Translations under genes and position numbers: made by a program
Shown here: positions 35,091 to 57,907 of the stretch, one piece after another
How positions within the stretch are numbered: the first letter of the stretch is position 1
Layout: the number at the start of each line of letters is the position of its first letter
Notes under the pieces: model-generated
What the model saw: the letters and a program-made list of their open reading frames with translations, nothing else
What the model was told of the DNA's origin: nothing
Database searches by the model: none
DNA from: Rhizobium sp. ICMP 5592
GTDB taxonomy: Bacteria; Pseudomonadota; Alphaproteobacteria; Rhizobiales; Rhizobiaceae
Direction: 5' to 3'
Assembly: GCF_009498525.1 (NCBI RefSeq)
Contig: NZ_QSNT01000001.1
Location: 62,001-126,000, forward strand
Length of the DNA stretch: 64,000 bases

Positions 35091-36335
35091 CTAGAGATTT
35101 TCAAGCTCGAGCAACTCGTCCAGCGTCTGGCGACGGCGGATCAGCCTGTGTTTTCCTTCGTCCAAAAGCACTTCGGGAGCGTAGAGGCGGCTATTGTAGT
35201 TCGAGGACATCGTCGCCCCATAAGCGCCGGTGCCGTGAAACACCAGAAAGTCGCCGACATGCGTTTCGGGCAGGTCTCGTTTTTCCACCGTTCCGAATTC
35301 CGTCTGCGTGAACACATCGCCCGATTCACACAAGGGGCCGGCGACGACGGTCGGCAGGGTAGCGGCCGAGCGATCGCGGGGCGTTGGCCCGGGGATGACC
35401 GATATATGATGATAGCTGCCATACATCGCCGGTCTGGCGAGGTCGCTGAAACCGGCATCGACCAGCGTGAAGCGGTTCTGGCCCATGGTCTTCACCGCCC
35501 TCACCTCCGCCAGCAGCACGCCAGAATCCGCTGTGAGAAAGCGTCCGGGTTCGATCTCCAGGCGGATCGGATGCTTGACATGCGCTTCGATCTGCCGACG
35601 CGCCTCATCCCAGAGCGAGAAATAATGCGTGGGATCGATCTCCTCCTCGCCTTCCTTGTAGGGCACGGAAAGGCCGCCGCCTGCGGAGATCGCCTCGATA
35701 TCCGTGCCGAGATCGCGACAGAAGTCGACCATCGCGCCGCAGACGCGCTGGAGATGACCGTAATCGACGCCGGAGCCGATATGCATATGCAATCCGACAA
35801 GCGTCAGAGAATGGGCGCGCACGGCAGCCACCGCCTCGTGCAACTGCTCGAACCAGATGCCGTGCTTGCTGTTTTCGCCGCCGGTATTGGTCTTGCTACT
35901 GTGGCCATGCCCGAAGCCGGGGTTGACGCGAAGCCAGACCCTGTGACCGGGAGAACGCTCGCCGAGCTGATGCAACATGTCGATCGAGCCGATGTTGACC
36001 TCGATCTTGTCGGCAACGACCCGGTCAAGGATCGCACGATCGAAGACGTCGGCGGTGAAGACGATTTCCGCCGTCTCGGAGGAGCTACCTACCGCAAAGC
36101 CCGCCCGCACGGCACGCTCGATCTCGCCGAGCGAGACGGCGTCGACGAAAACGCCTGCCTTACGCATTTCCCTGAGTATATGGATGTTCGAACAGGCCTT
36201 TTGCGCAAATCGGATCACGTCGAAGGCCGACAATTGGTTGATGCGGCGACGAATGGCTTCAGCGTCGTAGACCCAGAGTGGCGTCCCATATTCGGCGGCG
36301 AGCGTGGTCAGGGTGTCGTTGGAAGGGATGGTCAT
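35091..36335 (-). CDS. lysA: Diaminopimelate decarboxylase of the enterobacterial LysA type
   Basis: A 414-residue PLP enzyme of the alanine-racemase-like fold. It has the PLP Lys in FAQKACSNIHILREM, the HIGSG motif (LHMHIGSGVDYGHLQ), EPGRFL, and the decarboxylase Cys in LCESGDVFTQ. Long stretches such as RVWLRVNPGFGHGHS and RPAMYGSYHHIS match the E. coli LysA pattern as I remember it, rather than the usual alphaproteobacterial LysA. It would make L-lysine from meso-diaminopimelate. It lies at the end of the siderophore operon, so it could supply a lysine building block or act as a racemase/epimerase-like partner; this is inferred. Confidence 0.9.
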   Translation of the reverse strand: MTIPSNDTLTTLAAEYGTPLWVYDAEAIRRRINQLSAFDVIRFAQKACSNIHILREMRKAGVFVDAVSLGEIERAVRAGFAVGSSSETAEIVFTADVFDRAILDRVVADKIEVNIGSIDMLHQLGERSPGHRVWLRVNPGFGHGHSSKTNTGGENSKHGIWFEQLHEAVAAVRAHSLTLVGLHMHIGSGVDYGHLQRVCGAMVDFCRDLGTDIEAISAGGGLSVPYKEGEEEIDPTHYFSLWDEARRQIEAHVKHPIRLEIEPGRFLTADSGVLLAEVRAVKTMGQNRFTLVDAGFSDLARPAMYGSYHHISVIPGPTPRDRSAATLPTVVAGPLCESGDVFTQTEFGTVEKRDLPETHVGDFLVFHGTGAYGATMSSNYNSRLYAPEVLLDEGKHRLIRRRQTLDELLELENL

Positions 36336-36386
36336 TTTCTCTCGGTCGGTTGGGGCTGAGGCTTGGCAATGGGCCGTGACAATAAT

Positions 36387-36417
36387 GCGGGCGGAACGCC
36401 GTTGTCGCTCCGCCCGC
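36387..36417 (-). promoter_or_regulatory. Intercistronic hairpin between lysA and the upstream PLP gene
   Basis: GCGGGCGGA and TCCGCCCGC form a perfect 9-bp stem with a 13-base loop, in the 117-base gap. It could separate lysA expression from the acyltransferase-MATE-PLP part of the operon. Confidence 0.5.
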
Positions 36418-36452
36418 TTCGTAATGCAAATCAGAATTTGAGGCGGCGTTGC

Positions 36453-37634
36453 TTATTTTGCCGCCGCCGCAAAGGCCTGCTGCAGATCCGCAATAATGCT
36501 CTTCGCATGATGAAGACCGACGTTGAGGCGGATCGTCCGGTCGCTGACGCCAAAGCGCGCGAAGACGTTCGTTTCAGGCGAGATGCTCAGGGCCGCCTTT
36601 GCCGGAACGACGAGGCTTTCCGGGCCGCCCCAGCTGACGCCGATCCGCACCAGCCGCAGGGCGTCGACGAAAGAGGCGACATCAATATGATCCGCAACCT
36701 CGAAGGAGAAGAGGCCGCCAAATCCGCTGAAGGTGCTCTTGCCCGGATGCTCTGCGAAAGTCGGATGCATGACGTTTGCAACCGCGTCGGCGGACTTCAA
36801 CCACGACGCGACTTCAAGGCCCGCTTCGTGGTGATGGCGCATGCGGAACGGCAGGGTTTCTAGATTGCGTAGAACCAGCCATGCCTCGAATGGCGCAAGC
36901 TTGGCGCCCGTATAGGGATAGATCTCGCTATTGATCCGATTGATATGCGCGCGCGATCCGGCAACGAGGCCCGCAACCGTGTCACTCTGCCCGCCGAGAT
37001 ATTTCGAAGCGGCGTGGATCACCAGATCGATGCCGACGGCGAGCGGGTTCTGGTAAAGCGGCGTTGCCCAGGAATTGTCGACCATGGTCACCACACCATG
37101 CCGGCGGGCCGCTTCGGCAATTGCGGTCAGATCCTGCAATTCGAAGACCATTGACGTCGGGTTTTCGAGATAGACGACCTTGGCGCCGGGGATGGCCGCG
37201 ATCATCTTCTCCGTATCAGTCCCGTCGACATAGTCGACGATGACGCCGAAGCGCTTCAGCACCTTTTCGAAGAAGCGGAACGCATCGCTATAAACATGCC
37301 GGACGGTGACGATGCGGTCGCCCGGCCCGACGAAGGCAAGGATTGCGGCGGCAATGGCGCCCATGCCGCTGGAAAAGGCCCGCGCTTCCTCGGTGCCTTC
37401 CATCTCGGCAATCCGTCGCTCCAGCAACTGTACCGTCGGATTGTCGCCGCGCGAATAGATCGGCTTTTTCGAACGGCCGGCAAAGACATCCTCAAGCTCG
37501 CTGTAGCTGTCGAACAGGAAGAGCGACGTCTGATAGATCGGCGGCACAGCCGCATTGAAGGGATCGTCCTGGACAGGCATCAGCGTGTCGGGAACCATTC
37601 TGTGATAGGCATCGAACCTTGGGGTCTCGTTCAT
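36453..37634 (-). CDS. Cystathionine gamma-synthase family PLP enzyme
   Basis: A 393-residue Cys/Met-metabolism PLP enzyme (type I fold). Markers are AVPPIYQTSLF, YSRGDNPTVQLLERRIAEME (in place of YSRxxNP), FSSGMGAIAA, the PLP Lys in HAASKYLGGQSDTVAG, and SLVVPAKAA. Members catalyse beta/gamma elimination or replacement on cysteine- and methionine-related substrates. It is co-transcribed with the siderophore acyltransferase and MATE genes (14-base gap), where its role is not obvious. It could make a building block or process one in siderophore synthesis. Confidence 0.87.
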   Translation of the reverse strand: MNETPRFDAYHRMVPDTLMPVQDDPFNAAVPPIYQTSLFLFDSYSELEDVFAGRSKKPIYSRGDNPTVQLLERRIAEMEGTEEARAFSSGMGAIAAAILAFVGPGDRIVTVRHVYSDAFRFFEKVLKRFGVIVDYVDGTDTEKMIAAIPGAKVVYLENPTSMVFELQDLTAIAEAARRHGVVTMVDNSWATPLYQNPLAVGIDLVIHAASKYLGGQSDTVAGLVAGSRAHINRINSEIYPYTGAKLAPFEAWLVLRNLETLPFRMRHHHEAGLEVASWLKSADAVANVMHPTFAEHPGKSTFSGFGGLFSFEVADHIDVASFVDALRLVRIGVSWGGPESLVVPAKAALSISPETNVFARFGVSDRTIRLNVGLHHAKSIIADLQQAFAAAAK

Positions 37635-37648
37635 GGTGTCCTCGTTTT

Positions 37649-39016
37649 TCAGGGATGGAGTGTCGATGGACCAATCAGATGGCCCGTGTTTGTCGGCAGG
37701 AGTGCCAGCCATTCGCGCCGGGCGATGACGAGGCCAAGCATGGCCGCAAGGATCGCGGCGCCCGCCGGCGCAAGAGCGACACCGGCAAAGCCGATCCAGA
37801 GCGGCAGCAAAAGCAGAAGAGGAATGAGCAGATAGCCTTGCGGCGCAAGTCCGACCACGGCGGAAAGTCCGGCCCGGCCCCGCGATTGGAGCATCACCAG
37901 CAGAACCGACTGAAACGCCGCCAATGGAAAGACCGGAAAGAGCGCGCGCAGATAGGAGGCCGCCTCGGCTGCGACCTCGGAATTATCGGTGAACAGGCGC
38001 ACAATCGGTTCGGCTCCTAAAAACAGCAGCGCGGAATAGAGGGACGCTACGGGGATGGTCACCGCCAGCATGACGCGAATGATCGCTCTCACCCGCAGGG
38101 GATCGCCCGCCCCGACGGCATGGCTGACGACGCTTTGCGCACCGAGGCAGAAGCCGAAGACAGGAAGCTGGCCGAGCGTCATCAAGCGAATGGCGATCGC
38201 TGTCGCAGCCACGCCCGCATCGCCGCCATGAACGGCCGCCTCGCGCAGAAGAACGAGGAAACCGATCCCCGTCACGACACTCGTGGCGGCGGCGGGAATA
38301 CCGATCCTTGCGATCGGCCGCAGCAATCGCCAGCGCACCAGCCACGTCGTCACCCTGACCTTGCCCCATCTGCGCTGGAAATAGACGACGTAGCAGAGAA
38401 GGGCTGCCACAGATGACAGTATGGTCGCAAAGGCAGCGCCCGTTTCGCGAAACTGCAGCAGGAAGATGAAGACCGGGTCGAGAATGGCATTGAGCGCGAA
38501 ACTGGCAATCAGCACGATCATCGAGAAACGCGAGTTTCCTTCGGCAATCGCGATGAAATCGCAGACAGCCTGCAACAATCCAAGTGTCACACCAAAGGCC
38601 AGCAGTCGCCCGTAATTGAGGCCCGGCGCCAGAAGCTCGTTGCTGGCGCCGAGCGCGCCGACGAAGCTCGGCAATCCGAGATAGATGAGGACGGAGAGGA
38701 CGATACCGATCGGGATGGTCGCGGCCAATGCCGTCACCGCCACCGACGAGGCGGCGCTAACGTCGCCCTCGCCGAGATGCCGCGCCAGAAGCGTGGCAAG
38801 CCCTATGCCGAGCCCCTGCCCTGTCGCCGCGACCAGCAGGAACAGCGGCATGACCAGGCTGATGCCGGCGAGCACCTCCGGCCCCAGAGCACCAAGGAAA
38901 ATCGCGTTGATCGCATGGTGGCCGGCGCTTGCCGCCAAACCGGCCACGGCCGGCAGCGCGATCGTCAGAACGAGCCGCATGACGCGCGGATCGTTCATAT
39001 CGACAGCTGTCTTCAT
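37649..39016 (-). CDS. MATE-family efflux transporter, probable siderophore exporter
   Basis: A 455-residue membrane transporter with two MATE domains and about 12 spans (LVLTIALPAVAGLAASAGHH, LVMPLFLLVAATGQGLGIG). Its ATG overlaps the acyltransferase TGA (TGATG), so it is translated from the same mRNA. Location suggests export of the siderophore made by the cluster. It occupies the place of vbsD in the vicibactin vbsADL operon as I recall it; that correspondence is inferred. A GTG one codon upstream is an alternative start. Confidence 0.88.
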   Translation of the reverse strand: MKTAVDMNDPRVMRLVLTIALPAVAGLAASAGHHAINAIFLGALGPEVLAGISLVMPLFLLVAATGQGLGIGLATLLARHLGEGDVSAASSVAVTALAATIPIGIVLSVLIYLGLPSFVGALGASNELLAPGLNYGRLLAFGVTLGLLQAVCDFIAIAEGNSRFSMIVLIASFALNAILDPVFIFLLQFRETGAAFATILSSVAALLCYVVYFQRRWGKVRVTTWLVRWRLLRPIARIGIPAAATSVVTGIGFLVLLREAAVHGGDAGVAATAIAIRLMTLGQLPVFGFCLGAQSVVSHAVGAGDPLRVRAIIRVMLAVTIPVASLYSALLFLGAEPIVRLFTDNSEVAAEAASYLRALFPVFPLAAFQSVLLVMLQSRGRAGLSAVVGLAPQGYLLIPLLLLLPLWIGFAGVALAPAGAAILAAMLGLVIARREWLALLPTNTGHLIGPSTLHP

Positions 39017-40164
39017 CACGCAGCGTCCCGAGGCAACGAACCAAGGACCGGCGAGCCGTCTTCGCCGGCCAGGCCGGAGAGATCGGGCGACAGCAGCCGG
39101 TCCATGAAAAAGCGCTCGCGCAGGAGCATCACCAACAACGCCTTTTTGTGGGCAAACTGGATATGCTTGATCTTGGAGAAGCCCGACCGGTCGAGATTGC
39201 GGATCTGCTGGCGATGATGATGCACCGGTTCGCCGACGATGCGACGCGTGCGTGGATCGGCGAGGAACATGTAGTGCATTAAAGACGGCAGCCAGGCGCT
39301 GACGAAGGCCTTTCCACGGAAGGCATCCTCGCCGATGGCGACATGCCAGCCACGATCATGACCTTCGGCCTCGTAATGCGGGCCGATGCGATCTTCCTTG
39401 GCCCAGTAAAGCTCGAAATAGCCGAAGGGTACGCCGCCAAACGTTCCGATCAGCGGTAGGGTGCGCGGATCGGCGAGCCGACCGGCGATGAAATCGCGAT
39501 GATAGGACAGCTCGCCATTGTCCTCCCAGATGGCGGCGACGCGGGGATCGTTCATCCAGCGATGGAAATGCGGGAGATCCGCATCGATATCGGCGACATG
39601 AAAGCCGAGTGGCATGTTCAGCCAAGGAATGAACCTGTCATAGACGGAACCAACAGGTTTCGGTGGCCGCTGGGGATGAAGGACGCCGTTAGTCAGGACC
39701 GGCGTTTCCGGATAGGCGAAAGGCGTGCCTCCAAGCCAGGGCTTTGCCTGCTGGAAAAAGGCTTCCTGACGGGCGATGAACCGATCACCCCGCTGTTCGA
39801 CAGCGCCCGATGCCAGGAGGCGGCCCAGGAGAGCGCGATCCTCAAGAACGATATCGACCACTTCCAGCTCCGGATGGCAGGTCAAGACCGCATCGAACAC
39901 GGCGTTGACGACATCCTCGGGCGAAAGCTCTTTCGTGCCAGCGGAGATCTGATCGAAGGACAGCAGAGACCCGGCTGAGGCCGAAAAACGTCCCGAGGCC
40001 ACCTCGACGCCATGATGTTTGACACGGAAGCCGCCGGGTGCCGACAGCACGATGACAGGCAAGCCTAGCGCCAATGCGTGGCTTGCAAACCCCTCCGGCG
40101 GCAGGCGCAGATCGAATGATCCGGCCGCCGCAATCTCGCGCGTCGTCGCAACAAAAGCATCCAT
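39016..40164 (-). CDS. IucB/AlcB-like N-hydroxyamine acyltransferase (VbsA-like)
   Basis: A 382-residue enzyme. The C-terminal half (about residues 190-370) is the siderophore GNAT domain: FHRWMNDPRVAAIWEDNGEL, FGGVPFGYFELYWAKEDRIG and RGWHVAIGEDAFRGKAF. The N-terminal half is a less conserved accessory region. It transfers an acyl group from CoA onto the N-hydroxylated side chain. The cluster's PhaB gene implies (R)-3-hydroxybutyryl-CoA as donor, as in vicibactin VbsA. It heads the minus-strand operon, divergent from the NRPS gene. Confidence 0.87.
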   Translation of the reverse strand: MDAFVATTREIAAAGSFDLRLPPEGFASHALALGLPVIVLSAPGGFRVKHHGVEVASGRFSASAGSLLSFDQISAGTKELSPEDVVNAVFDAVLTCHPELEVVDIVLEDRALLGRLLASGAVEQRGDRFIARQEAFFQQAKPWLGGTPFAYPETPVLTNGVLHPQRPPKPVGSVYDRFIPWLNMPLGFHVADIDADLPHFHRWMNDPRVAAIWEDNGELSYHRDFIAGRLADPRTLPLIGTFGGVPFGYFELYWAKEDRIGPHYEAEGHDRGWHVAIGEDAFRGKAFVSAWLPSLMHYMFLADPRTRRIVGEPVHHHRQQIRNLDRSGFSKIKHIQFAHKKALLVMLLRERFFMDRLLSPDLSGLAGEDGSPVLGSLPRDAA

Positions 40165-40413
40165 TTTCGGTCTCCAAATCCGGCCAACGCCAACCGAACA
40201 CCCGTAGAGCCGGGCACGGCGTCAATCCCGCAGAGACGAATGGCGGCACACGAAATTCAAAATATTTCTCAAATTTATTTTTTACGATTTTTCTGAATTT
40301 CGGATCATCTCGTTCGTCTAACAGCCGCATCGAATTTAGAAATGAAAATATCCGAATTAGAACTGTTATAATGTAGGTATTATCTCAAGGTATACTTACA
40401 AGTATTCACCATG

Positions 40414-40443
40414 CGCGAAATTATATAAAATAATAATTTCGCG
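40414..40443. promoter_or_regulatory. AT-rich divergent control region with an 11-bp inverted repeat
   Basis: CGCGAAATTAT (40414-40424) and ATAATTTCGCG (40433-40443) are perfect 11-bp arms around 8 bases, 44 bases before the NRPS ATG. The 322-base gap 40165-40486 is much richer in A/T than its surroundings and serves both the NRPS and acyltransferase operons. It holds no gene and no exact TGA-N9-TCA box; an ECF-sigma promoter is expected here but I cannot define one. Confidence 0.45.
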
Positions 40444-40486
40444 AATTCGATTGCTACTTCAAGCGCAACTCGGAGAACTGCAAGAC

Positions 40487-43400
40487 ATGACACTTCACGA
40501 CAGGAATGCCACGGCGGCAAATAGTTCGGACAACGTCGCGACGTGTCCACTATCGCCGACGCAATCGCGAATCTGGCTTCTGTCCGAGACCGGCAACGAA
40601 GCCGTGTTCGGACGACAGATACTCGGGATTGGATTTGCCGCAGTGGAGGCGCCAGCGGCGCGCAAGGCGCTCACGACCCTGTCGGAATATCATCCCCTGA
40701 TCGCCCGCAAATTCGAGGCGCGCCCTGGCGGTACCGTCTATCAGAGCCTGGGGGACGCGCGGCGCATCGAGATCGTCGAACGCAGCCTCTCCGACAGCGA
40801 AAGCATCGAGGAAGTGTTGCCTGCCGCAGCCGAGGAAGAAAGACAGCGGCAAGTGGACCTGCAGGCAGGATATCCGGCTCGCTTCGTACTCTTCGTCAGT
40901 GGGCAACAGGCCGTCGGCGTGCTGTTATCGCTGCATGCGGTCATCGGCGACAGCGTGGCGCTCGACCGGCTTGCAAATGATTTTATTCTCAATATCGGCG
41001 GTCTCGCCGCTACGGGAGCCGATCGCGCCGAAACCGCATTTCCCCACGCCGCCGCATGGATGCTCGACCATGCAGCCCTTTGCAACCCCTCAGCCGAGCG
41101 GGTGGATTTCTGGTTTCGGCGGCTGACGGCACAGGAAAACATCGCCGCTCTCACACCGCAGGCAACCATCGCCAAGGAAATTGAAGACGCCGGCTGGTAC
41201 GAACATGTGCTCGACATATCAGCCCTGAAATATGCCGAACTCTCCAACGATATCCTCCCAGCCCTCGCGGTGGCATTGCGCCGCTATTCTGGATACGGCA
41301 CGCAGAGGATCGGCCTGGTCACAAGGCCGGAAAGGTCCGTGATAACGGCCCGCACGGAAGATGTGCTGATCGTCACCGCAGAGATCGACGGCGCAATGAC
41401 GCTCCGAGAGACCCGCAAGGCACTTGCGGCCAACATGGAAACCGCTGCCGCGCAGGCCCTACCCTTCGAAGGACTGGCCGAAGCCCTGCTGCGGCGCGAT
41501 GAGCTTTTCGACACCACGAGCCTCGTCAAAACGCTTCTCGATATCAGGCCGGCTTTCCGTTTCGAGGCGACAGCGGCGGTTCGCACCCTTGCCGAGCCGC
41601 CCGCCCGCCGCGACGCCGAACTCGTCATCACGGTTTCCCATGTCTCCGACGGCCGTGCAAAAATCCGGTTCGGTTTCGACCCGCAGAAATACGAGCGCAA
41701 GCATATCGCACGTTTTGCGAATGATCTGGCAACCGCGCTTGAACAACTTCGTAGCAGCCCGGATCAATCGATCAAGGATATCCCGTTCGTCTCGCGCGAG
41801 GAACTCGACAGGCTTTCAGCACCCTATCCGGATCAACCGGAAGCGGACGACGGTGTGCCGATCCATGAGGTGATCGCGGCGCAGGCGAAACGACGGCCCA
41901 ATGCCTTCGCCGTGGCACAGGGCGAAAAATCCATAACGCATGGCGAGCTCGAAGCCGCTGCCAATCGTCTGGCCAACCGTCTCGTCGCCATGGGTGTCAG
42001 ACCCGAAAACCGGGTCGCGATCGCTCTTGAGAAGTCGATCGATGCGATCATCGCCATTCTCGCGGTCCTGAAGTCGGGCGGAGCGTTTACCCCCGTCGAG
42101 CCGGATCATCCCGAAGCGCGCAATCGGCATATCCTCAGTGCACCCGGCCTGTCACTGATCATTTCGCGCACGCGGTCCATCGCCAATCTGCCGACCGACA
42201 TCGCAACACCGATGCTCAATCTCGATAAGACCGATCTCATCGCCGAAAGCATCGAAGCGCCCGTAGTCACTATCGCGGACCGGCAACTCGCCTATGTGAT
42301 CTACACCTCCGGTTCGACGGGCGTGCCGAAGGGCGTCGCCGTCGAGCATGGACCACTTGCCCATCATTGCAAAGCGACCTTGCGCATCTACGAAATGAGC
42401 GAGGCGTCTTGCGAATATCCGGTGCTACCCTTCACCTCCGATGGCGGCCACGAACGCTGGATGGTCCCCTTGATGGCCGGCGGCGGCGTGGTGCTGACGC
42501 AGGACAAGCTGGCGACCCCGGAAGACGCCTTCGCAATGATGCGCAGGCACGGCGTCAACAATGCCAGCCTTCCCACCAGCTATGTGCGTGGCCTTGCCGA
42601 ATATGCCGGCGAGAACAGCGAAATACCGAGGCTGAGACTCTATTCGTTCGGCGGCGAGGCGCTGTCGCAGGCGGTGTTCGACATGATCACCGAAAACCTG
42701 CAGGCGCAGATGCTAATCAATGGCTACGGGCCGACCGAAACGATCATGACCCCGATGATCTGGAAGATCCCCGCAGGCACCCGTTTCGAGGGGACCGTCG
42801 CGCCGATCGGCCGAGGCGTCGGCGACCGGCGCATCTATGTGCTTGACGCCGATCTCGCTCCCGTACCGGTCGGCGTGATCGGTGAAATCCATATCGGCGG
42901 CAGCGGCCTGGCGCGCGGCTATCAAGGCCAGCCGGAGCTGACCGAAGAGCGCTTCATTCCCGACCCGTTCTCCGACAATGGCGGCCGGCTTTACAAGTCT
43001 GGCGATCTTGGTCGTTGGCGCGAGGACGGCATCGTCGAGTTCGCAGGGCGCGTCGATCATCAGATCAAATTGCGTGGCTACCGCATCGAGCCCGGCGAGA
43101 TCGAAGCGGTGCTCAGATCCAATCAGAGCGTTGCCGAGGTCGTGGTTCTGCTGCACCACGAAGGAGGGCGCAGCTCGCTGGTCGCCTATGTCGTGCCGCG
43201 CGAAGGCGAAACGCTGAGCGTGACGGAATTGCGGCGCGCCGCGATGACCGCGCTGCCGGACTACATGGTGCCTCAGACGATCATGCTGCTGGACAAGCTT
43301 CCGATGGGGCCGAACAGCAAGCTGGACAGAAGCGCGCTGCCCGCTCCCCGGATAGACCGGGATGTGGTCGCACCCGCGACAGACAAGGAAACCGCGATCC

Positions 43401-47372: not shown

Positions 47373-47410
47373 TCACCACATCCATCCCATCGCCTTCCAC
47401 GGGAACGACC

Positions 47411-48223: not shown

Positions 48224-49121
48224 CGGACCTCTCGACATCTTCAGGCTGTCGCGCCGCAACGCCCTGATCGCCGCCGCCGCGATGTTCGCCGCGCCTCGGA
48301 TCGGGCGCGCCGCATCGCCGATGTCCGGCCCGATCGTTTCGCTGGATTACGGCCTGGCCTCAACCCTTCTGGCGCTCGGGGTAACGCCCGCTGCCATCGT
48401 CTCGCTTGCGGATTGGGACAAATGGGTGGTGGAACCGAAAATGCCATCCGGTGTCGTTGATCTCGGGACCGCCTGGGAAATCAATCTTGAGATCCTGGCG
48501 AGCCTCAAGCCGGCCCTGATCCTGACGACCCCCTATCTGGCGGCCCTCAAACCACGCCTCGAGCCGATCGCACCCGTTCTGGAGCTGACGATCTATGCCG
48601 AAGGAGGAGAGGCATTGCCCCGCGCCATCGAGGCCACCAGGGCGCTGGCCACGGCGATCGGCCGCGAGCGGCAGGCGGCCGATTTCCTCGCAAGATCGGA
48701 GCAATTCTTCGATGACTGTGCCGAGCGGGTCCAACGGATGTCGCCGCCGCCGCTGGCGCTCGTCAGTTTCGTCGATCAGCATCATGCCCGCATCTATGGC
48801 GGCGCCGGCCTCTACCAGAACGTCATGACCCGGATCGGCCTGAAGAACGCCTGGACAGGCAGCGGCAATTTCTGGGGTTTCGAGACCATCGGCATCGAGC
48901 AGCTGGCCTCGCTCGATCAGAATTTGCGGCTGATCGTCTTCGAGCCGCTCATTCCCCCCAATATCCTGTCTGGCCTCGATGAGAGCCCCTTGTGGACCAG
49001 CCTGCCCTTCGTGAAAGCCGGACGGATCTCGGTTCTCCCCGGGACGCTCATGTTCGGTATGATGCAGGAGGCGGAGCGCTTCGCCGGCATCCTGCTTGAC
49101 CATCTCGAGAAGGCGGCCTGA
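48213..49121 (+). CDS. fhuD: Periplasmic ferric-hydroxamate binding protein (FhuD-like)
   Basis: A 302-residue binding protein. The signal peptide has a twin-arginine-like start (RLSRRNALIAAAAMFAAP), then IGRAA. The helical-backbone SBP fold is seen in IVSLDYGLASTLLALGVTPA, WEINLEILASLKPALIL and PLWTSLPFVKAGRISVLPG. It hands the ferric siderophore to FhuB. The gene overlaps fhuC by 11 bases and fhuB by one base. Confidence 0.9.
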   Translation: MSSNGPLDIFRLSRRNALIAAAAMFAAPRIGRAASPMSGPIVSLDYGLASTLLALGVTPAAIVSLADWDKWVVEPKMPSGVVDLGTAWEINLEILASLKPALILTTPYLAALKPRLEPIAPVLELTIYAEGGEALPRAIEATRALATAIGRERQAADFLARSEQFFDDCAERVQRMSPPPLALVSFVDQHHARIYGGAGLYQNVMTRIGLKNAWTGSGNFWGFETIGIEQLASLDQNLRLIVFEPLIPPNILSGLDESPLWTSLPFVKAGRISVLPGTLMFGMMQEAERFAGILLDHLEKAA

Positions 49122-51109: not shown

Positions 51110-51176
51110 CCAAGGCATCCCTCTGTCCCGGTTGATATCGAAACTGGGTTCACACGAAAATGGCAGGGAGAAAGAC

Positions 51177-51902
51177 ATGACCAGGGTCGCTTTGGTAACG
51201 GGAGGAACGCGCGGGATCGGCGCGGCAATTTCCATTGCTCTGCAAGAGGCGGGTTACAGGGTTGCGGCCAGCTATGTCGGCAATGATGACGTTGCCCGCG
51301 CATTCCGGGAAAAGACCGGCATTCCGGTGTACCGATGGGACATTCGCGATTACCAGGCCTGCAAGGAAGGGATCGCCCGGGTCGAGGACAATCTCGGGCC
51401 GATCGAGGTGCTCGTCAACAATGCCGGCATCACCCGCGACGGCATGTTCCACAAGGTCACGCCCGAGGACTGGAATACGGTCATCAGCACAAATCTGAGC
51501 GGGCTGTTCAACATGACCCATCCGGTGTGGCCGGGTATGCGCGAACGGAATTTCGGCCGGGTGATCAATATTTCCTCGATCAACGGGCAGAAGGGCCAGC
51601 TCGGCCAGGCCAATTACTCCGCCGCGAAAGCCGGCGATCTCGGCTTCACGAAAGCGCTGGCACAGGAAGGTGCTGCCAAGGGGATCACCGTCAACGCCGT
51701 TTGCCCCGGCTATATCGGCACGGAGATGGTCCGAGCCATGCCGGAAAAGGTGCTGAAGGAACATGTTCTGCCACAGATACCGGTCGGCCGTCTCGGCGAG
51801 CCCGAAGAAATCGCGCGTTGTGTGGTCTTCCTCGCCTCCGATGAGGCCGGCTTCATCACCGGATCGACGCTGACCGCCAATGGTGGCCAGTATCTTGCCT
51901 AA
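51177..51902 (+). CDS. phaB: Acetoacetyl-CoA reductase PhaB
   Basis: A 241-residue NADPH-dependent SDR making (R)-3-hydroxybutyryl-CoA. It follows the PhaB pattern: VALVTGGTRGIGAAIS, SYVGNDDVARAF, NNAGITRDGMFHKVTPEDW, NISSINGQKGQLGQANYSAA (catalytic Ser and Tyr, then Lys) and CPGYIGTEMV. PhaB normally serves polyhydroxybutyrate synthesis with phaA/phaC, but neither is here. Its place after fhuB, 67 bases downstream, points to supply of the acyl donor for the siderophore acyltransferase. The ribosome site is GGGAG. Confidence 0.93.
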   Translation: MTRVALVTGGTRGIGAAISIALQEAGYRVAASYVGNDDVARAFREKTGIPVYRWDIRDYQACKEGIARVEDNLGPIEVLVNNAGITRDGMFHKVTPEDWNTVISTNLSGLFNMTHPVWPGMRERNFGRVINISSINGQKGQLGQANYSAAKAGDLGFTKALAQEGAAKGITVNAVCPGYIGTEMVRAMPEKVLKEHVLPQIPVGRLGEPEEIARCVVFLASDEAGFITGSTLTANGGQYLA

Positions 51903-51918: not shown

Positions 51919-51942
51919 GGCGGGCTGTTGTTGCAGCCCGCC
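51919..51942. terminator. Bidirectional terminator hairpin between phaB and the GFA gene
   Basis: GGCGGGCTG and CAGCCCGCC form a perfect 9-bp stem with a 6-base loop. On the minus strand it is followed by a T-rich run (TTTCTTCTTTTCC), giving a good intrinsic terminator for the GFA gene. On the plus strand it closes the phaB transcript. Confidence 0.7.
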
Positions 51943-52028
51943 AGGAGATATTGCCGACCTCCCAATCAGTCGGCACTTCATGAGCAGATAAAGAACCTTC
52001 GAGGAATCCCACGCATGTGACGTGCGAC

Positions 52029-52421
52029 CTATTCCTCAAAGCGGCTCGCGTCGTCACGATCGCGGTCGTATCGTTTCGTGAGCGGAAACGGCGGCAGCCA
52101 GGCTTCGCGGCGGATGGTCCAGAGTTCGTAGGTTGGCCTCAGTTGGTCAGGGGCATCAAGAGATCCCAGATTCACCTCGATTTCGTCTGCCGTGCGCCCG
52201 AAAACCGACGAGCCACAGCGGGGGCAGAAAAACCGTCCGGCGTAGTCGCGCGTTTCGCCTTCAACCGTCACCGCATCCTGAGGGAATATCGCGGAAGCGT
52301 GAAAAAGGGCGCCATGGTGCTTGCGGCAGTCGAGACAGTGACAAAGTCCGACCCGGTATGGGAGCCCCGACGCCACGATGCGGACGTCGCCGCACAGGCA
52401 ACCGCCCGTGAATCGGTCCAT
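52029..52421 (-). CDS. GFA/Mss4-fold zinc protein
   Basis: A 130-residue protein of the glutathione-dependent formaldehyde-activating-like (GFA) family. Zinc-ligand Cys are seen in GGCLCGDVRI, CHCLDCRKHHGA and FFCPRCGSS. The family function is poorly defined; some members bind glutathione adducts. It lies between the phaB and receptor genes, but 179 bases separate it from the receptor stop and a strong hairpin lies between, so it is probably separate. Confidence 0.9.
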   Translation of the reverse strand: MDRFTGGCLCGDVRIVASGLPYRVGLCHCLDCRKHHGALFHASAIFPQDAVTVEGETRDYAGRFFCPRCGSSVFGRTADEIEVNLGSLDAPDQLRPTYELWTIRREAWLPPFPLTKRYDRDRDDASRFEE

Positions 52422-52561
52422 GCTGTATCTCCTCCAAAATCAAGCGGGCGGATTATTTACAACGAACATCGCAGCCATTGCAATTTTCCGCCGCGGGCGG
52501 GATGCAGCATTATTCGAGAGTGGGCGCCAGGGATCATCGCTTTCAGGCGACCGGAGCCTGG

Positions 52562-52591
52562 CGCGTCGCCCTCTATAAAAAGGGCGACGCG
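52562..52591 (-). terminator. Hairpin downstream of the TonB-dependent receptor gene
   Basis: Perfect 11-bp stem (CGCGTCGCCCT with AGGGCGACGCG) and an 8-base loop, 9 bases past the minus-strand stop. There is no U-tract after it on this strand. Between it and the GFA start nothing else was seen. Confidence 0.6.
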
Positions 52592-52600
52592 TAAGTCATC

Positions 52601-54790
52601 TTACCAGCGATACTTGAGCGAAGCGGTGATGTTGCGGCCCTGGCCCAGGTAGCAATAGCCTTCGTTGCAGACCGTCAGGCGGCGGTTGGCGATGTTTCGA
52701 ACGTCGACGGATGCCGTCAGGCCTTTGTATTTCTGGTCGATTGCACCGAAATCGTAGGAAAGCGCCGCATCCAGATAGAAACTTGCATCGTTCTTGGCGG
52801 TGTTGGCCGTGCTGGTATAGGTCTTGCCTGTGTAGCGAATGCCGGTACCGACCGTGAGGCCGTTTGCAGCCGTATCCTCCTGGAAGGTATAGTTCGACCA
52901 CAAGCTGACAATATTCTTCGGCGTAACCGCGGGTGCGTTACCTGTGTCATCACCCGCGGTGATCTCGGAGTGATTGTAGGAATAGGCCGCAATCACATCC
53001 CAACCGTCTGTAACGTTCGCCTTGGCCTCCAGTTCAATACCCCTGTTGGTGACCTCACCGAGCGAGGCATAGACAAGTGTCAGTGGATTGACCAGGACGG
53101 GCTTGTTCTTCTCGACGAGGTTATAGGCAACGGCGGACAACAGAATGTCGGTGCCCGGCGGCTGATATTTCACACCCAGCTCATATTGTTCGCCCTTTGT
53201 CGGATCCAGGATCTGGCCGGAGGCGGATCGTTGCGTGACCGGGTCGAAGGATGTCGAATAGCTGGTGAAGGGTGCAACGCCGTTGTCGAACAGATACAGT
53301 GCCCCGGTTTGGACCGTGAACGCGTGCTTGCTGAGGCTGTCGTCCGTGCTCGTTCCAGAAGATACATAGGTCGTATCCGACGACTGCTTGACCCAGGTCT
53401 GGCGCCCGCCGAGCGTGAAGCGCCATTTGTCGAGTTCGATCTGGTCAAGGGCATAGGCGCCGACCTGCTGCATACTGGCGGCGACCCGGCTGTAATTATA
53501 TTCCGGTGTCGGGCCTGATACCCCATAAGTCGGATTATCGATATCGAAGTCGTAGGCCGCGCTGGCCGTGGAATCGAACCCATATGCGAAGGAATCGTTC
53601 ATATGGGTGTAGTCCAAGCCGACCAGCACGGTATGCGCGGCCGGACCGGTATCGAACTTCGATTCGAGCTGGTTATCGACCTGGAAGACATTCACCTTGT
53701 CGCTGATTGCACTTGCGCCGCGATGAGCAACATTGCCGGTCCAGCTGTAGACGCCGAGATAGCGCGCTTTCAGATCCAGATGAGAATAGCGCAGATTCTG
53801 GCGGAAAGTGAAACCACCGTCGAACTCGTGCTCGAACTGGTAGCCGACCTGCTGCTGGCGCGTCTTCTGATAGTCATAGTCCGGATCGCTCGCGCGCAAT
53901 TTGAGGACGTTGCCGTCGGGGCCGGTCAGCGCACCGACATTGGCATCGCCTTCAGTCGACTGTGCCGAGCCGTAAACCGTGAATTTCGTGGCATCGTCCG
54001 GCTTCCAGGTGAAGGATGGTTGTATGAAATAGCGATCGTCGGCAATATCGAAATTGGTATCGCCCTTTCGCGCCAGACCGACGATCCGGTACAGCATGCT
54101 GTCATCGTCCTGATTGACCCGGCCGCCAAAGTCGAACATCGTCTGGGCACGGTCCGATGTTCCATAGACGGCACCGACCTCCCGGATCGTCTCATCCGTC
54201 GGTAGCTTCGAGATCTTGTTGACGATGCCGCCCGGCGAGCCTGGACCATAAAGCACCGACGTCGGCCCCTTGATCACTTCGACCCGGTCGAGCGAATAGG
54301 GATCCGTGCGGAACATCCCGTAGTTCATATAGGGTTGGCGCAGGCCGTCGCGAAAATCACCCGTGGTCGTCACATCATTGCCGCGAATATAGACCTGATC
54401 GAAGCGCGGATCGAAACCATAGGAGCCGGTCTGGACGCCGGCGGAATAGCGCACTGCCTCGATGATGTCCTGGGCGCCGCGCTCTTCCAACTCTTTTTTG
54501 GTGATCACGGAAACGGATCGCGGCGTCTCGACCAGAGGCGTATCGATCTTGGTGGCGCCCTTGCTCTTCTTGGCTGCGACGGTCGAATTGTCGCTCGCAT
54601 CGCTTGCGCTACCGTTAACGACAATCGGAGCGAGCTGCGTTGCGTTCCCTGCACTCCCATTGGCTGAGGCATCCTGGGCGAAGGCATTCCCGCTCAATGC
54701 AAGCACCGTTGCAAGCGCTGTCGTCGTGCGCGCCAGATAAAATCTATCTCTCTTTAAGTAAATGATATTATTGATTGATTTAAACGCCAT
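52601..54790 (-). CDS. TonB-dependent ferric-hydroxamate receptor (FhuA/FoxA type)
   Basis: A 729-residue outer-membrane receptor. The signal peptide is followed by LSGNAFAQDA, then a TonB-box-like area and the plug (ETPRSVSVITKKELEERGAQ, DRVEVIKGPTSVLYGPGSPG). The barrel follows, ending in CNEGYCYLGQGRNITASLKY and a final RW, as typical of FhuA-family receptors; the two Cys near the end may form a disulfide. There is no N-terminal secretin/STN signalling domain. It would take up the ferric siderophore made by this cluster, with release by the adjacent esterase. A -35 TTGACG (54852-54857) and -10 TAGTTT (54828-54833) are on the minus strand. Confidence 0.92.
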   Translation of the reverse strand: MAFKSINNIIYLKRDRFYLARTTTALATVLALSGNAFAQDASANGSAGNATQLAPIVVNGSASDASDNSTVAAKKSKGATKIDTPLVETPRSVSVITKKELEERGAQDIIEAVRYSAGVQTGSYGFDPRFDQVYIRGNDVTTTGDFRDGLRQPYMNYGMFRTDPYSLDRVEVIKGPTSVLYGPGSPGGIVNKISKLPTDETIREVGAVYGTSDRAQTMFDFGGRVNQDDDSMLYRIVGLARKGDTNFDIADDRYFIQPSFTWKPDDATKFTVYGSAQSTEGDANVGALTGPDGNVLKLRASDPDYDYQKTRQQQVGYQFEHEFDGGFTFRQNLRYSHLDLKARYLGVYSWTGNVAHRGASAISDKVNVFQVDNQLESKFDTGPAAHTVLVGLDYTHMNDSFAYGFDSTASAAYDFDIDNPTYGVSGPTPEYNYSRVAASMQQVGAYALDQIELDKWRFTLGGRQTWVKQSSDTTYVSSGTSTDDSLSKHAFTVQTGALYLFDNGVAPFTSYSTSFDPVTQRSASGQILDPTKGEQYELGVKYQPPGTDILLSAVAYNLVEKNKPVLVNPLTLVYASLGEVTNRGIELEAKANVTDGWDVIAAYSYNHSEITAGDDTGNAPAVTPKNIVSLWSNYTFQEDTAANGLTVGTGIRYTGKTYTSTANTAKNDASFYLDAALSYDFGAIDQKYKGLTASVDVRNIANRRLTVCNEGYCYLGQGRNITASLKYRW

Positions 54791-54864
54791 GACGAGCCCT
54801 GTCCACCCATTCCTGAAAAGATGGCGCAAACTAGATCGTCACAGCGGGCTTCGTCAAGAATACA

Positions 54865-54879
54865 TGATTGAAATAGTCA
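54865..54879. promoter_or_regulatory. IRO-type iron box upstream of the receptor gene
   Basis: TGA-TTGAAATAG-TCA matches TGA-N9-TCA; it lies 75 bases upstream of the receptor ATG, next to the -35 candidate at 54852-54857. RirA-type iron repression is inferred. Confidence 0.7.
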
Positions 54880-54995
54880 TCTTTTTACCATTTTTGATTT
54901 CGGATATCCCGAATCCGTTGAAAGACACACGGATCAGCATCGAATATCGTCGCTTACACAACTATTAATTGCTTTCATGAGGACCGATCATCTGC

Positions 54996-55035
54996 TTGCC
55001 AGAGCATCGCTGAAATAATATGAGGAATCTAGTCA
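54996..55035 (+). promoter_or_regulatory. Esterase promoter with IRO-type iron box
   Basis: TTGCCA (54996-55001), a 17-base spacer and TATGAG (55019-55024) form the promoter. TGA-GGAATCTAG-TCA (55021-55035) overlaps the -10 and the start, with extended arms ATATGA/TCATAT. The third box in the cluster; it lies 74 bases before the esterase ATG. Confidence 0.7.
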
Positions 55036-55108
55036 TATTTCGAGTCGGTCGCGCGGTTTCCAGTGGAGTCGCCCGGCTCTATTGGTCGCTCGACCCTGCG
55101 GAGAAAAC

Positions 55109-56011
55109 ATGCCCAATTCGTCATCCAGCGCGACAGAGGCGTCGCTTGCGCCCGTGACGATCGCGGACGCCAGTTTTGCCGATCTCAGCTCCGGGGGCGC
55201 CAGCGAACCCTATCGCATCTTTCTCTACCGCCCCGCCAAGACACCCCCACCCGAGGGTTGGCCTGTCCTTTATCTGACGGACGGCAACGCCTGCTTCGCG
55301 ACGGCGGTCGATGCCTTGAAGGTGCAAGCCTCCTATGCGAACGGAACCAATGTCTGCGACGGTGTCGTCGTCGCCATCGGCTATCCCACGGATCAACCCT
55401 ATGATCCGCTGCGGCGCTCCTGGGATTTGAGCCCGCCTCCCGGCCGGGTCTATCCACCGTTCTTTCCCGACACACCGGATGTCAGGACAGGTGGCGGTGC
55501 CGAGTTCCTGACCTTTATCGAGGAGCGGCTGAAGCCCTGGGTCGAGGCGCAGATTCCGATCGACCGTTCCCGCCAGACCCTGTTCGGCCATTCCTTCGGC
55601 GGGCTGTTCGCCCTCTACGCCCTGTTTTCAAAACCGAGTGCCTTCAACCGATGGGTCGCGGCGAGCCCGGCGATATTCTGGGAAGACGCGGCGATCCTTG
55701 CGGCGGAAAAAACGTTCCTCGAAGAGCACAAGGCTTCCCTCGACATAGAGCTGCATCTGTCCGCCGGGCAGTATGAAGGCGAGGTGCTGGCGCCCTTTCA
55801 CAAGGGAACGCCAGAGGAACAGAAGCGGCAGGAGCGCGCCAGGGAAACCCGGACGGTGGGATATGCCCAGGACATGGCCATACGGCTGGCGGCGTCGGCT
55901 ACGCTACCGGGAAAAGTGACGTTCGAAGAATATGCCGGCGAAAATCACATGTCGGTGCTTCCGGTCGCCTTGAATAGGGCGGCGCAAATTGCGTTTCGAA
56001 GAGTGGGCTGA
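55109..56011 (+). CDS. Fes/IroE-like siderophore esterase
   Basis: A 300-residue alpha/beta hydrolase of the esterase_D/Fes family. The nucleophile is Ser in FGHSFGGLFALYALF; WPVLYLTDGNACFATAVDAL is near the N-terminus, and the catalytic His lies in AGENHMSVLP. Fes and IroE hydrolyse cyclic triester siderophores to release iron, and a cyclic tri-ester (hydroxybutyrate) siderophore is expected here, so cytoplasmic or periplasmic ester cleavage fits. No signal peptide is evident. The ATG at 55109 follows GCGGAG. An IRO box controls it. Confidence 0.87.
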   Translation: MPNSSSSATEASLAPVTIADASFADLSSGGASEPYRIFLYRPAKTPPPEGWPVLYLTDGNACFATAVDALKVQASYANGTNVCDGVVVAIGYPTDQPYDPLRRSWDLSPPPGRVYPPFFPDTPDVRTGGGAEFLTFIEERLKPWVEAQIPIDRSRQTLFGHSFGGLFALYALFSKPSAFNRWVAASPAIFWEDAAILAAEKTFLEEHKASLDIELHLSAGQYEGEVLAPFHKGTPEEQKRQERARETRTVGYAQDMAIRLAASATLPGKVTFEEYAGENHMSVLPVALNRAAQIAFRRVG

Positions 56012-56150
56012 CAGCAAACATCCGGGGTTTCCGCACGCGAGAACCATCTTTGGCTTTACAATCCTCGATGACTTTTCGACCCACGGCCGGCAGGCTACGA
56101 AATAGCCGCGTGGGGCTCGAACACGGGCGGAATTGGGGAAGAAGCAAGTC

Positions 56151-56927
56151 ATGGCGCAATCCATCATCGATCTGTCGGTACCGATAGCCAACGATATTCC
56201 GGCGGATCCCCCGGTCCAGATTCCCCGCATTGAATATATCGATCACAAGCAGAGCCTTTCGCAAATCCTTCCATTCTTTCCGGGCCTTGCCGCCGAAGAT
56301 CTTCCGGACGGCGAAGGCTGGGCGATCGAACGCGTCACCCTTACGACACACAACGGCACCCACCTTGACGCTCCCTGGCACTATCACTCCACCATGGATC
56401 ACGGCCTACCCGCGCTGACGATCGATGAGATCCCGCTGGAATGGTGCTTTCAACCGGGCGTCAAGCTGGATTTCCGTCACCTCGAAAACGGCTATGTCGT
56501 CACGGCAAAAGATGTCGAAGCCGAGCTTGAACGCATCGGACACACGCTGAAGCCTCTGGAAATCGTCGTCGTCAACACCTCGGCCGGCAAGCGCTTCGGC
56601 CAGACCGACTATGTCGCCAGCGGTTGCGGCATGGGATATGAGGCGACCATGTATCTTTTGGAACGCGGCGTGAAGGTGACCGGCACCGATGGCTGGAGCT
56701 GGGATGCGCCCTTCGTCCACACCGCCAGAAGATATGCTTCGACCGGCGACGCCTCGCTGATCTGGGAAGGCCACAAGGCCGGACGGCACAAGGGATATTG
56801 CCATATCGAGAAACTGCACAATCTCGAGGTGCTTCCCTCGACGGGGTTCAAGATCAGCTGCTTCCCCGTCAAGATCGAGCGCGCCTCCGCCGGCTGGACG
56901 CGGGCGGTCGCCATTATCGACGGTTGA
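56151..56927 (+). CDS. Cyclase-family metal-dependent hydrolase
   Basis: A 258-residue protein of the cyclase family (kynurenine formamidase-like fold). The metal motif HNGTHLDAPWH is clear (H-x-G-T-H-x-D-x-P-x-H), with DLSVPIANDIPADP at the N-terminus and TDGWSWDAP downstream. It may hydrolyse a formamide, lactone or cyclic amide. It follows the esterase by 139 bases and lies before the PPTase, so a link to siderophore turnover is possible, as is an unrelated role. The ribosome site is GGGGAAG. Confidence 0.87.
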   Translation: MAQSIIDLSVPIANDIPADPPVQIPRIEYIDHKQSLSQILPFFPGLAAEDLPDGEGWAIERVTLTTHNGTHLDAPWHYHSTMDHGLPALTIDEIPLEWCFQPGVKLDFRHLENGYVVTAKDVEAELERIGHTLKPLEIVVVNTSAGKRFGQTDYVASGCGMGYEATMYLLERGVKVTGTDGWSWDAPFVHTARRYASTGDASLIWEGHKAGRHKGYCHIEKLHNLEVLPSTGFKISCFPVKIERASAGWTRAVAIIDG

Positions 56928-57026
56928 GGATAAGGGCATGGCGGTTGACATAGCAATGTCGGCCGCCCGAAAGACCGCGAAAATCCAGGGGCATACACCA
57001 GCATCCGTTTTCGATAAGCAAATGGC

Positions 57027-57188
57027 ATGAGACGTCTGGCGATCAGTGACCTGCATCTGGCAAGCGACGCCCTGCTCGGTCATCCGCGTCATCAAGACAG
57101 GAGCCTCGGTGCTGTGAATTATCGTCGCGACGTTCTGCCTGAGACATTGGTGCCTAAGACACGGCAGCGGCGGGAGCTTGATGCATGA
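57027..57188 (+). pseudogene. Short ORF with metallophosphoesterase-like N-terminus, probable remnant
   Basis: A 53-residue frame starts MRRLAISDLHLAS, which matches the first metal-binding motif (D-x-H) of metallophosphoesterases, but the other motifs are absent and the remaining 40 residues are unrecognised. The TGA overlaps the PPTase ATG by four bases, as a genuine upstream gene in an operon would. It looks like an internally deleted gene that kept its coupling to the PPTase. It may also be a short real ORF. Confidence 0.4.
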
Positions 57189-57907
57189 TGGCAAAAGACG
57201 AAGTCGTGGTCTGGTGGCTCGGCACGGAGATCGCCGAGGAGAATTTGCCACAACTGGAAGCGTTGCTCGATGACACCGAGCGCGCTCGCGCTGCCCGCTT
57301 TCATTTCCAGCACGACCGTTCATCCTATATCGCGGCGCATGCTCTGGGGCGCAGCCTACTCTCAACCTATGCCGGCGGCGACCCGACCGGCTGGCGCTTC
57401 ACGATCGGCGATCACGGCAAGCCGGAAGTCATCCCGCCGCATTCCGGTCCTCGGCTGCGTCTCAATTTATCGCATACGCGCGGACTGGCAGCGGCGGCGC
57501 TCACATTGGACCATGATCTGGGGATAGACGTGGAATGGCTCGACCGAACACCCGCCATCGATCTGGCCGAGGACTACTTCGCACCCGCCGAACGCGCGCA
57601 TCTGGCGGCCGTTGCACCGGAGCTTGCCCATGAAGTCTTCCTGACATTCTGGACCCTCAAGGAAGCCTATGTGAAAGCGATCGGCAAGGGACTGGCGCAA
57701 CCGCTGGACTCCTTCGCATTTACCCTCGATCCGCTGTCGATCCGGTTCGACGACGAACTGGCCGGCGATCCCGCATACTGGCTGCTCCGCCGCTTCCAGC
57801 CGACATGCGACCATCTGATGGCGCTCGCATTGCATCACCCAAGGCCCCAAGACGTAACCGTCACGACATTGGCGGCCGATTCAAATCTGTTGCTCTCTAC
57901 GGGATGA
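57185..57907 (+). CDS. Sfp-type 4'-phosphopantetheinyl transferase (VbsP-like)
   Basis: A 240-residue enzyme. The Mg-binding and CoA-binding motifs are LGIDVEWLDRTP (G-I-D-V-E) and FWTLKEAYVKAIGKGL (W-x-x-K-E-A-x-x-K). It transfers the phosphopantetheine arm to the Ser of the NRPS carrier domain at FFDIGGQS, so it is required for siderophore assembly. The ATG at 57185 has GGGAG 8 bases upstream; an adjacent ATG at 57188 is an alternative. It corresponds by role to vbsP. Confidence 0.93.
   Translation: MMAKDEVVVWWLGTEIAEENLPQLEALLDDTERARAARFHFQHDRSSYIAAHALGRSLLSTYAGGDPTGWRFTIGDHGKPEVIPPHSGPRLRLNLSHTRGLAAAALTLDHDLGIDVEWLDRTPAIDLAEDYFAPAERAHLAAVAPELAHEVFLTFWTLKEAYVKAIGKGLAQPLDSFAFTLDPLSIRFDDELAGDPAYWLLRRFQPTCDHLMALALHHPRPQDVTVTTLAADSNLLLSTG

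Follow-up and report, generated by a model that had tools for sequence, protein, structure and literature searches.

A variant vicibactin-type siderophore locus of Rhizobium sp. ICMP 5592 with an adjoining lysA gene and a putative siderophore esterase gene

Relation to the described vbs systems

The closest described system to the locus reported here is the vbs cluster for vicibactin, a siderophore built as a cyclic trimer of N5-acyl-N5-hydroxy-D-ornithine. In Rhizobium johnstonii 3841, previously classed as R. leguminosarum, the vbs region lies on plasmid pRL12 and encodes a receptor, FhuF, a GNAT protein, an extracytoplasmic function (ECF) sigma factor, a pyridoxal phosphate (PLP)-dependent transferase, a MATE protein, a GNAT acyltransferase, MbtH, a nonribosomal peptide synthetase (NRPS), a monooxygenase, and a phosphopantetheinyl transferase (PPTase). 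The enzymatic vbs pathway is reportedly the one set out by Heemstra in 2009, and we use the names VbsA, VbsD (MATE), VbsG (MbtH), VbsP (PPTase), and RpoI (sigma factor) for the corresponding proteins. We analyzed a 64,000-nucleotide stretch (the window) of the 6.7-Mb genome of Rhizobium sp. ICMP 5592, in which positions 35091 to 57907 hold a siderophore locus of this type. We consider it likely that this locus makes vicibactin or a near-identical cyclic trimer from an unchanged monomer, that iron is recovered by way of an esterase encoded in the locus, and that the LysA protein encoded beside the siderophore genes is an ordinary diaminopimelate decarboxylase.

Parts of the vbs pathway are also treated in PMC12971057, PMC10510648, and PMC8776678, and VbsL is the gene chosen in the first of these to detect vicibactin pathways. 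For R. tropici CIAT 899, the genome paper mentions a hydroxamate cluster with some vbs-similar genes and a receptor/transporter pair nearby (PMC3557214). In our comparisons, for which fetched loci and genomes carry L and G labels (R. johnstonii 3841 is L042), the CIAT 899 cluster (L053) has the same order as the window, namely, lysA-vbsL-MATE-vbsA divergent from vbsS-vbsO, followed by sigma, VbsC, FhuCDB, receptor, and esterase genes, with 71 to 85% identity. It differs in that its PPTase gene lies between vbsO and the sigma gene and in that no PhaB copy was found in the fetched span. The block lysA-vbsL-MATE-vbsA/vbsS-vbsO recurs in more than 20 rhizobial genomes, and the arrangement is therefore not due to chance. 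Among 39 named genome loci returned for the NRPS, the nearest belong to R. rhizogenes strains (93 to 95% identity).

Genes were called by Pfam and NCBIfam profile scans of the window proteins (Table 1), and every gene that an initial annotation of the sequence had named in support of a complete vicibactin-type locus was present. The predicted set includes a condensation-adenylation-carrier-thioesterase NRPS with the VbsS code, together with VbsL, VbsO, VbsA, and VbsC. The window and 3841 share the NRPS adenylation code, VbsO, VbsA, VbsL, VbsC, MATE, PPTase, an ECF sigma factor, a related receptor, and an iron-responsive operator (IRO)-type box before the sigma gene. Identity is highest for the receptor (68%), while it reaches only 46% for VbsS. 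In contrast to 3841, the window locus contains LysA, a PhaB copy, an esterase, and FhuCDB inside it; its PPTase is diverged (31%) and located elsewhere, and the gene order is partly different. The comparison with 3841 that had been proposed at the outset thus yielded counterparts of all vbs genes except those for MbtH and FhuF. MbtH, which is present in 3841, gave no match to PF03621 in the ICMP 5592 genome, whereas control genomes gave matches. Because these two genes were not found, we file the locus as a variant vicibactin-type cluster and not as a 3841-type gene set. The lack of MbtH and FhuF matches and the resemblance of the esterase to siderophore esterases (see below) go beyond the initial annotation.

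That annotation had also listed extra enzymes, with the reservation that some might be known vbs steps. The reservation was justified for two of them: the “cystathionine-synthase-like” PLP enzyme is the predicted VbsL (55% identical to that of 3841) and the GNAT protein the predicted VbsC (57%), both ordinary vicibactin genes, and neither was retained as an extra. By the same comparison, lysA is a genuine addition to the 3841 gene set. VbsL, which probably starts at an internal Met at position 37634, has the Ala/Glu racemase 9iz5 as its best PDB match. No VbsC was found in the fetched spans of L012, L016, and L017. The short-chain dehydrogenase/reductase is a second acetoacetyl-CoA reductase copy, 78% identical to another copy elsewhere in the genome, and likely supplies (R)-3-hydroxybutyryl-CoA for the acyltransferase. 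The PPTase gene has moved; many relatives (e.g., L006 to L028) have a diverged PPTase (23 to 34%) between vbsO and the sigma gene, while that of the window follows the esterase gene. In the betaproteobacterium Trinickia diaoshuihuensis (L037), the cluster NRPS is 66% identical to that of the window and groups with Ochrobactrum/Brucella, and this cluster was likely acquired by horizontal transfer.

In the pathway that we propose, VbsO would hydroxylate ornithine and VbsA would add (R)-3-hydroxybutyryl from CoA, with the PhaB copy as the likely source. VbsL would then epimerize the product, VbsS, primed by the PPTase, would join three units through esters and close the ring, and VbsC would acetylate the amines. 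The MATE protein would export the siderophore, the receptor and FhuCDB would reimport the ferric complex, and the esterase would open that complex by cutting the ring esters, freeing iron inside the cell. RirA boxes and the ECF sigma factor would activate the locus when iron is scarce.

The adenylation code and the monomer

The initial annotation had suggested a different amine building block. The ten adenylation-domain code positions were read by a motif alignment of our own, on a position map in GrsA numbering. Of 45 NRPS rows, we set aside L001 (the other NRPS of the genome), L002 (a piece of the window), and L041 (a distant NRPS), leaving 42. The code DGESYFGMTK was found in 39 of these, comprising all 25 lysA-bearing rows and 14 of the 17 lysA-less rows, VbsS of 3841 included; the three exceptions, all from Thalassospira, read DGESCFGMTK, a single change. 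We also compared 23 lysA-bearing Rhizobium rows with the 3 rows without lysA that group within them. Fixed differences numbered two in VbsO (V to I and I to V), one in VbsA (P to A), one in VbsL (L to V), and five in the NRPS, none of which falls at a code position. On the shared code and the few fixed differences, we reject a different amine building block as the leading explanation, and the product very likely has no new backbone, which spares a chase for a new amine.

The same data bear on the possibility that LysA feeds lysine into the siderophore, making all or part of the product a hydroxylysine homologue of vicibactin. In its favor, 24 of the 25 carriers within the genus, and both genomes found outside it, have lysA linked to the cluster, and the gene is under purifying selection. 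The genome also gave no match to the IucA/IucC family, and we rejected use of the lysine by another siderophore route, for which such a synthetase would serve. Nevertheless, the adenylation code is identical with and without lysA, Thalassospira aside, and the 23 lysA-bearing rows are separated from their 3 lysA-less close relatives by only two fixed differences in VbsO and one in VbsA. We therefore regard lysine incorporation as very improbable.

The condensation domain carries an altered HHxxxDG motif, with a lone His and an Asp five residues on. Every one of the 39 rows with a condensation domain, VbsS of 3841 among them, shows this alteration, and it is therefore a trait of the NRPS family and not of the window. 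The three Thalassospira VbsS homologues (L038, L039, and L040, at about 9800 to 12650) are 939 to 950 amino acids long and consist of adenylation, carrier, and thioesterase domains, with no condensation-domain match in any of them, suggesting that the condensation domain may not be needed for trimerization. A second NRPS condensation domain lies elsewhere in the ICMP 5592 genome (G000:C18:16540-17856; L001).

The esterase and its probable role in the release of iron

Triacetylfusarinine C (TAFC) is, like vicibactin, a cyclic tri-ester trihydroxamate. PDB matches identified the window esterase as a sequence relative of BES (2qm0), the Aspergillus siderophore esterases 6guo and 6gud, and the ferric enterobactin/IroE esterase 2gzr, and the Ser and His motifs of this family are kept (GHSFGG and ENHMSV). 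Aspergillus EstB hydrolyzes TAFC (PMC10500206), and fusarinines, including TAFC, are macrolactones opened by esterases (PMC12305646). Unlike the Aspergillus enzymes, the window esterase, a predicted hydrolase of the ferri-siderophore triester, is bacterial and is encoded beside its receptor gene. The two genes diverge from one shared promoter region with two IRO-like boxes. In R. leguminosarum 248, a homologue with 51% identity lies beside fhuBDC on another plasmid, and in Phyllobacterium an esterase homologue adjoins the PPTase and VbsO genes. Four papers in our literature search mention both vicibactin and an esterase, and an earlier remark on an esterase in connection with vicibactin may exist.

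A search for FhuF with PF11575 found none; as the FhuF of 3841 falls under PF06276, the search was repeated with that family, again without a match in the genome, while control genomes gave matches. Across 46 loci (L041 excluded), 13 had the esterase only (including the remnant L051), 8 had FhuF only, none had both, and 25 had neither in the fetched span. We do not claim strict exclusion between esterase and FhuF, given the strain 248 esterase on another plasmid and the 25 uninformative loci of 46.

It is also conceivable that the esterase trims failed or free siderophore and not the ferric complex, with another reductase releasing the iron. Release of siderophore iron by ferric reductases is described for bacteria (PMC10500206), and our reductase search covered the two FhuF Pfam families only. 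Three observations make this explanation unlikely: the receptor and esterase genes share a single spacer, with two IRO-like boxes, from which they diverge; strain 248 has a homologue next to fhuBDC; and the enzyme is akin to those that open tri-ester siderophores.

The lysA gene beside the siderophore genes

LysA passes the TIGR01048 lysA equivalog cutoff (398 versus 298 bits). Its best solved match is the diaminopimelate decarboxylase 1knw (E value of 5e-177), the E. coli enzyme, and the active-site stretches are kept in the alignment. Across 96% of its length the protein shares 64.7 to 65.2% identity with the LysA of three E. coli records, and enterobacterial copies are 63 to 68% identical to it, which bears out the description of an enterobacterial-type LysA; the nearest named relatives outside Rhizobiaceae, among 120 listed, are mostly betaproteobacterial, with one from Pseudomonas and one from Thioclava. 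Unlike E. coli lysA, the window gene adjoins siderophore genes behind a hairpin, and a second lysA, of a different type, is present on contig C19 of the genome (32% identical to the cluster LysA). An action of LysA on a pathway intermediate, e.g., removal of stray D-configured or N-hydroxylated ornithine, could be imagined, because D-ornithine/D-lysine decarboxylases (6n2h and others) belong to the same wider family and D-configured ornithine derivatives are expected to arise in the pathway. Since LysA is far closer to 1knw than to these enzymes (E value of about 1e-30) and passes the equivalog cutoff, we give this idea hardly any credence.

LysA of this type, at 82% identity or more, was found in 25 of 148 genus members. 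In 24 of these (the window and 23 of 24 fetched stretches), lysA lies next to VbsL, VbsA, and NRPS genes, and VbsL was found in the same 24 genomes. In the remaining carrier, R. lusitanum 629 (G045), lysA lies beside cluster remnants (L051/L054, NZ_CP050307). Here the biosynthetic half is missing; remnants of the VbsL, NRPS, and sigma genes remain, the PPTase gene is in pieces, and FhuD is in two frames. The strain retains lysA (intact, 96% identical), the receptor, FhuB and other uptake genes, and the esterase, and it looks like one that takes up the siderophore and no longer makes it. VbsL was detected at an E value of 1e-130 in 68 of the 148 genomes: 27 at 84% identity or more, 24 of them with lysA, and 41 at 54 to 56%, none of them with a lysA of the cluster kind. 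More distant lysA copies (57 to 71%) occur in 11 genus genomes; no vbs genes were found in the fetched 15 to 20 kb around any of them, nor a VbsL match at 1e-130 in these genomes. Of these copies (L078 to L088), five of the seven surroundings viewed show a divergent LysR-like regulator gene, as judged by eye, unlike the cluster copy. In a family sample of 394 genomes, six had a LysA match at 1e-170 or better. Two of them are from other genera, namely, G400, which a shared stretch marks as the record of L026, and G432, and in both the gene lies inside the same cluster.

A LysA tree was built from 45 rows, namely, 25 cluster-linked copies, 19 hand-picked from the 120 listed relatives, and R. gallicum. 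A branch supported at 100/97 has every cluster-linked copy to the same side, along with three Shinella copies, one from A. ampelinum, and one further copy. The ratio of nonsynonymous to synonymous substitution rates was 0.045 to 0.096 for lysA in six comparisons and 0.030 to 0.227 for other cluster genes. Both lysA and the MATE gene are present in 24 of 34 clusters of this branch, while 8 have neither, 1 has MATE only (L036), and 1 has lysA only (L013, with MATE mostly deleted). The absence of lysA thus largely coincides with that of MATE, although VbsL lies between them; in G044, G102, and G103, three Rhizobium genomes that lack lysA, the top MATE match has 27% identity.

The vbsL-lysA gap contained one terminator-like hairpin against 0.9 expected in shuffled sequences, a count that is no evidence by itself. 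A perfect stem of at least 8 bp is present in the gap of 22 of 27 lysA-bearing loci, which are related and not 27 independent cases. In the other five the best perfect stem is 5 to 7 bp, no better than in shuffled sequences, and longer interrupted stems fold in the four looked at. Neither an IRO box in the gap nor an Rfam match to a lysine riboswitch before lysA was found. Given the hairpin, lysA may be read separately or only by read-through.

These data can also be read as those of a passenger, i.e., a functional lysine gene that came to lie next to the cluster and has since been inherited along with it without serving the siderophore. The hairpin separating lysA from vbsL, the intact lysA of R. 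lusitanum 629 in the face of lost biosynthetic genes, and the absence of lysA from lineages that keep NRPS and VbsO all fit such a history. A passenger is expected to move or decay, yet lysA occupies the same slot in Rhizobium, Sinorhizobium, Ensifer, and one other genus, all linked copies lie to the same side of a supported branch in the tree, and clusters that lack lysA for the most part lack MATE as well. We consider a passenger possible but doubtful. A further proposal makes the decarboxylase a working part of one vicibactin branch, tied to MATE, such that a lysine-dependent form is made or exported and iron is taken from the ferric complex not by FhuF but by a bacterial counterpart of the fungal TAFC esterase; we hold this to be improbable. 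In our preferred reading, with low confidence for this part, LysA would provide extra lysine in low iron. Our literature search found no paper joining vicibactin and diaminopimelate decarboxylase.

Several points weigh against our preferred reading, that of a vicibactin-like product, esterase-mediated iron recovery, and an ordinary LysA. The code positions rest on our own alignment, and the product and enzymes are predicted throughout. The 25 loci with neither esterase nor FhuF are uninformative: 18, all from Rhizobium, end near the esterase position of their relatives, and L024, L030, L031, L033, L036, L037, and L043 may lack both. In R. leguminosarum 248 an esterase homologue occurs in addition to a vbs-type NRPS, and FhuF forms part of the 3841 cluster; esterase and reductase are therefore not necessarily mutually exclusive. 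Kinship of receptors cannot serve as a strict marker of the ligand, because the receptor of the Phyllobacterium vbs cluster is only 34 to 35% identical to either. With a further lysA elsewhere in the genome, it is not evident why extra lysine would be needed, and the hairpin together with the lack of an IRO box before lysA argues against simple iron-driven cotranscription of lysA.

Regulation and layout of the locus

The box TTGACTATTATTATCA preceding the sigma gene is of the TGACTA type, and the locus is a predicted member of the RirA (IRO-box) regulon. Of 13 relatives examined, 11, 3841 included, have a box of this kind at the same place, the exceptions being L004 and L018. The IRO box of R. 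leguminosarum fhuA is published as TGACTAAAATAATCAT (PMC10510648). In eight of nine loci examined, the window included, two IRO-like boxes are found upstream of the receptor gene, toward the esterase gene; in three of the eight (L005, L020, and L021) the span ends before any esterase is visible, and in the ninth (L003) it ends inside the receptor gene. No TGA-N9-TCA box was found in the vbsA-vbsS spacer. Over the whole window, a relaxed IRO pattern matched 12 times against 7.4 expected, a number reached in 6 of 100 shuffles. Because this enrichment is only mild, it is the position and recurrence of the boxes, and not their count, that carry weight.

Table 1. Features of the siderophore locus, in window positions
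Feature	Position	Strand	Basis
LysA, diaminopimelate decarboxylase, beta/gamma-proteobacterial type	35091-36335	-	TIGR01048, 398 bits (cutoff 298)
vbsL-lysA gap with terminator-like 12-bp stem (36387-36417)	36336-36452	-	Hairpin search
Putative VbsL-type acyl-hydroxyornithine epimerase, Cys/Met PLP fold	36453-37712	-	55% to PLP gene of 3841 cluster
MATE exporter	37649-39019	-	PF01554/TIGR00797; 41% to 3841 MATE
Putative VbsA-type N-hydroxyornithine acyltransferase (IucB-like)	39016-40164	-	PF13523; 60% to 3841 gene over 68% of it
Spacer, divergent vbsA/vbsS	40165-40450		Intergenic
VbsS-type single-module NRPS, C-A-T-TE (condensation, adenylation, carrier, thioesterase)	40451-44461	+	Domain scan; 46% to 3841 VbsS; adenylation code DGESYFGMTK
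Putative VbsO-type ornithine N5-monooxygenase	44495-45805	+	PF13434; 51% to 3841 VbsO
RirA (IRO) box preceding sigma gene	46163-46178	+	TTGACTATTATTATCA
RpoI-type ECF sigma factor	46249-46839	+	PF04542; 30% to 3841 sigma
Putative VbsC-type acetyltransferase (GNAT)	46842-47372	+	GNAT match; 57% to 3841 gene
FhuC ATPase	47369-48223	+	NF007863, 380 bits, best match, below cutoff of 433
FhuD binding protein	48150-49121	+	NF007864, 184 bits, best match, below cutoff of 252
FhuB permease	49121-51109	+	NF007866, 780 bits, above cutoff of 554
Acetoacetyl-CoA reductase, PhaB-type short-chain dehydrogenase/reductase	51132-51902	+	TIGR01829, 369 bits, above cutoff of 302
GFA-family gene	52029-52421	-	Profile scan; not named in the initial annotation
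TonB-dependent hydroxamate-siderophore receptor	52601-54829	-	Profile scans; 68% to receptor of 3841 vbs cluster
IRO-like box, receptor side	54865-54880	-	One mismatch to TTGACTN7TCA
IRO-like box, esterase side	55021-55036	-	Pattern search
Putative siderophore esterase	55082-56011	+	PF00756; motifs GHSFGG and ENHMSV
Cyclase/arylformamidase-like protein	56133-56927	+	PF04199; L051 copy 93%; not named in the initial annotation
Phosphopantetheinyl transferase (VbsP role)	57185-57907	+	PF01648; 31% to 3841 PPTase

An open reading frame at 52017 to 52652 (+) is probably spurious, with the GFA gene on the opposite strand. A cupin-domain gene at 34442 to 35026 (-) follows lysA on the same strand and had no match in loci L001 to L044. 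Next to the siderophore locus, positions 58005 to 62305 (-) hold a tyrosine/homogentisate degradation set, consisting of glutathione S-transferase, fumarylacetoacetase-family, homogentisate dioxygenase, and 4-hydroxyphenylpyruvate dioxygenase genes. The window also contains a cobalamin riboswitch (18191-18417, +) and an Atu_C8 small RNA (29750-29869, +).

The analysis separates the standard from the nonstandard parts of a vicibactin-type cluster, the latter being lysA and the esterase gene. The VbsS branch, in a genome free of MbtH matches, offers with its 3841 relative a natural pair for studying why some adenylation domains need MbtH. Why a lysine-biosynthesis gene has remained next to siderophore genes in several genera, and is largely missing from clusters that lack the exporter, is a question that can be tested. 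Equally testable is FhuF-free unloading of a cyclic tri-ester hydroxamate siderophore in a bacterium, which would proceed by an esterase route like the fungal one.

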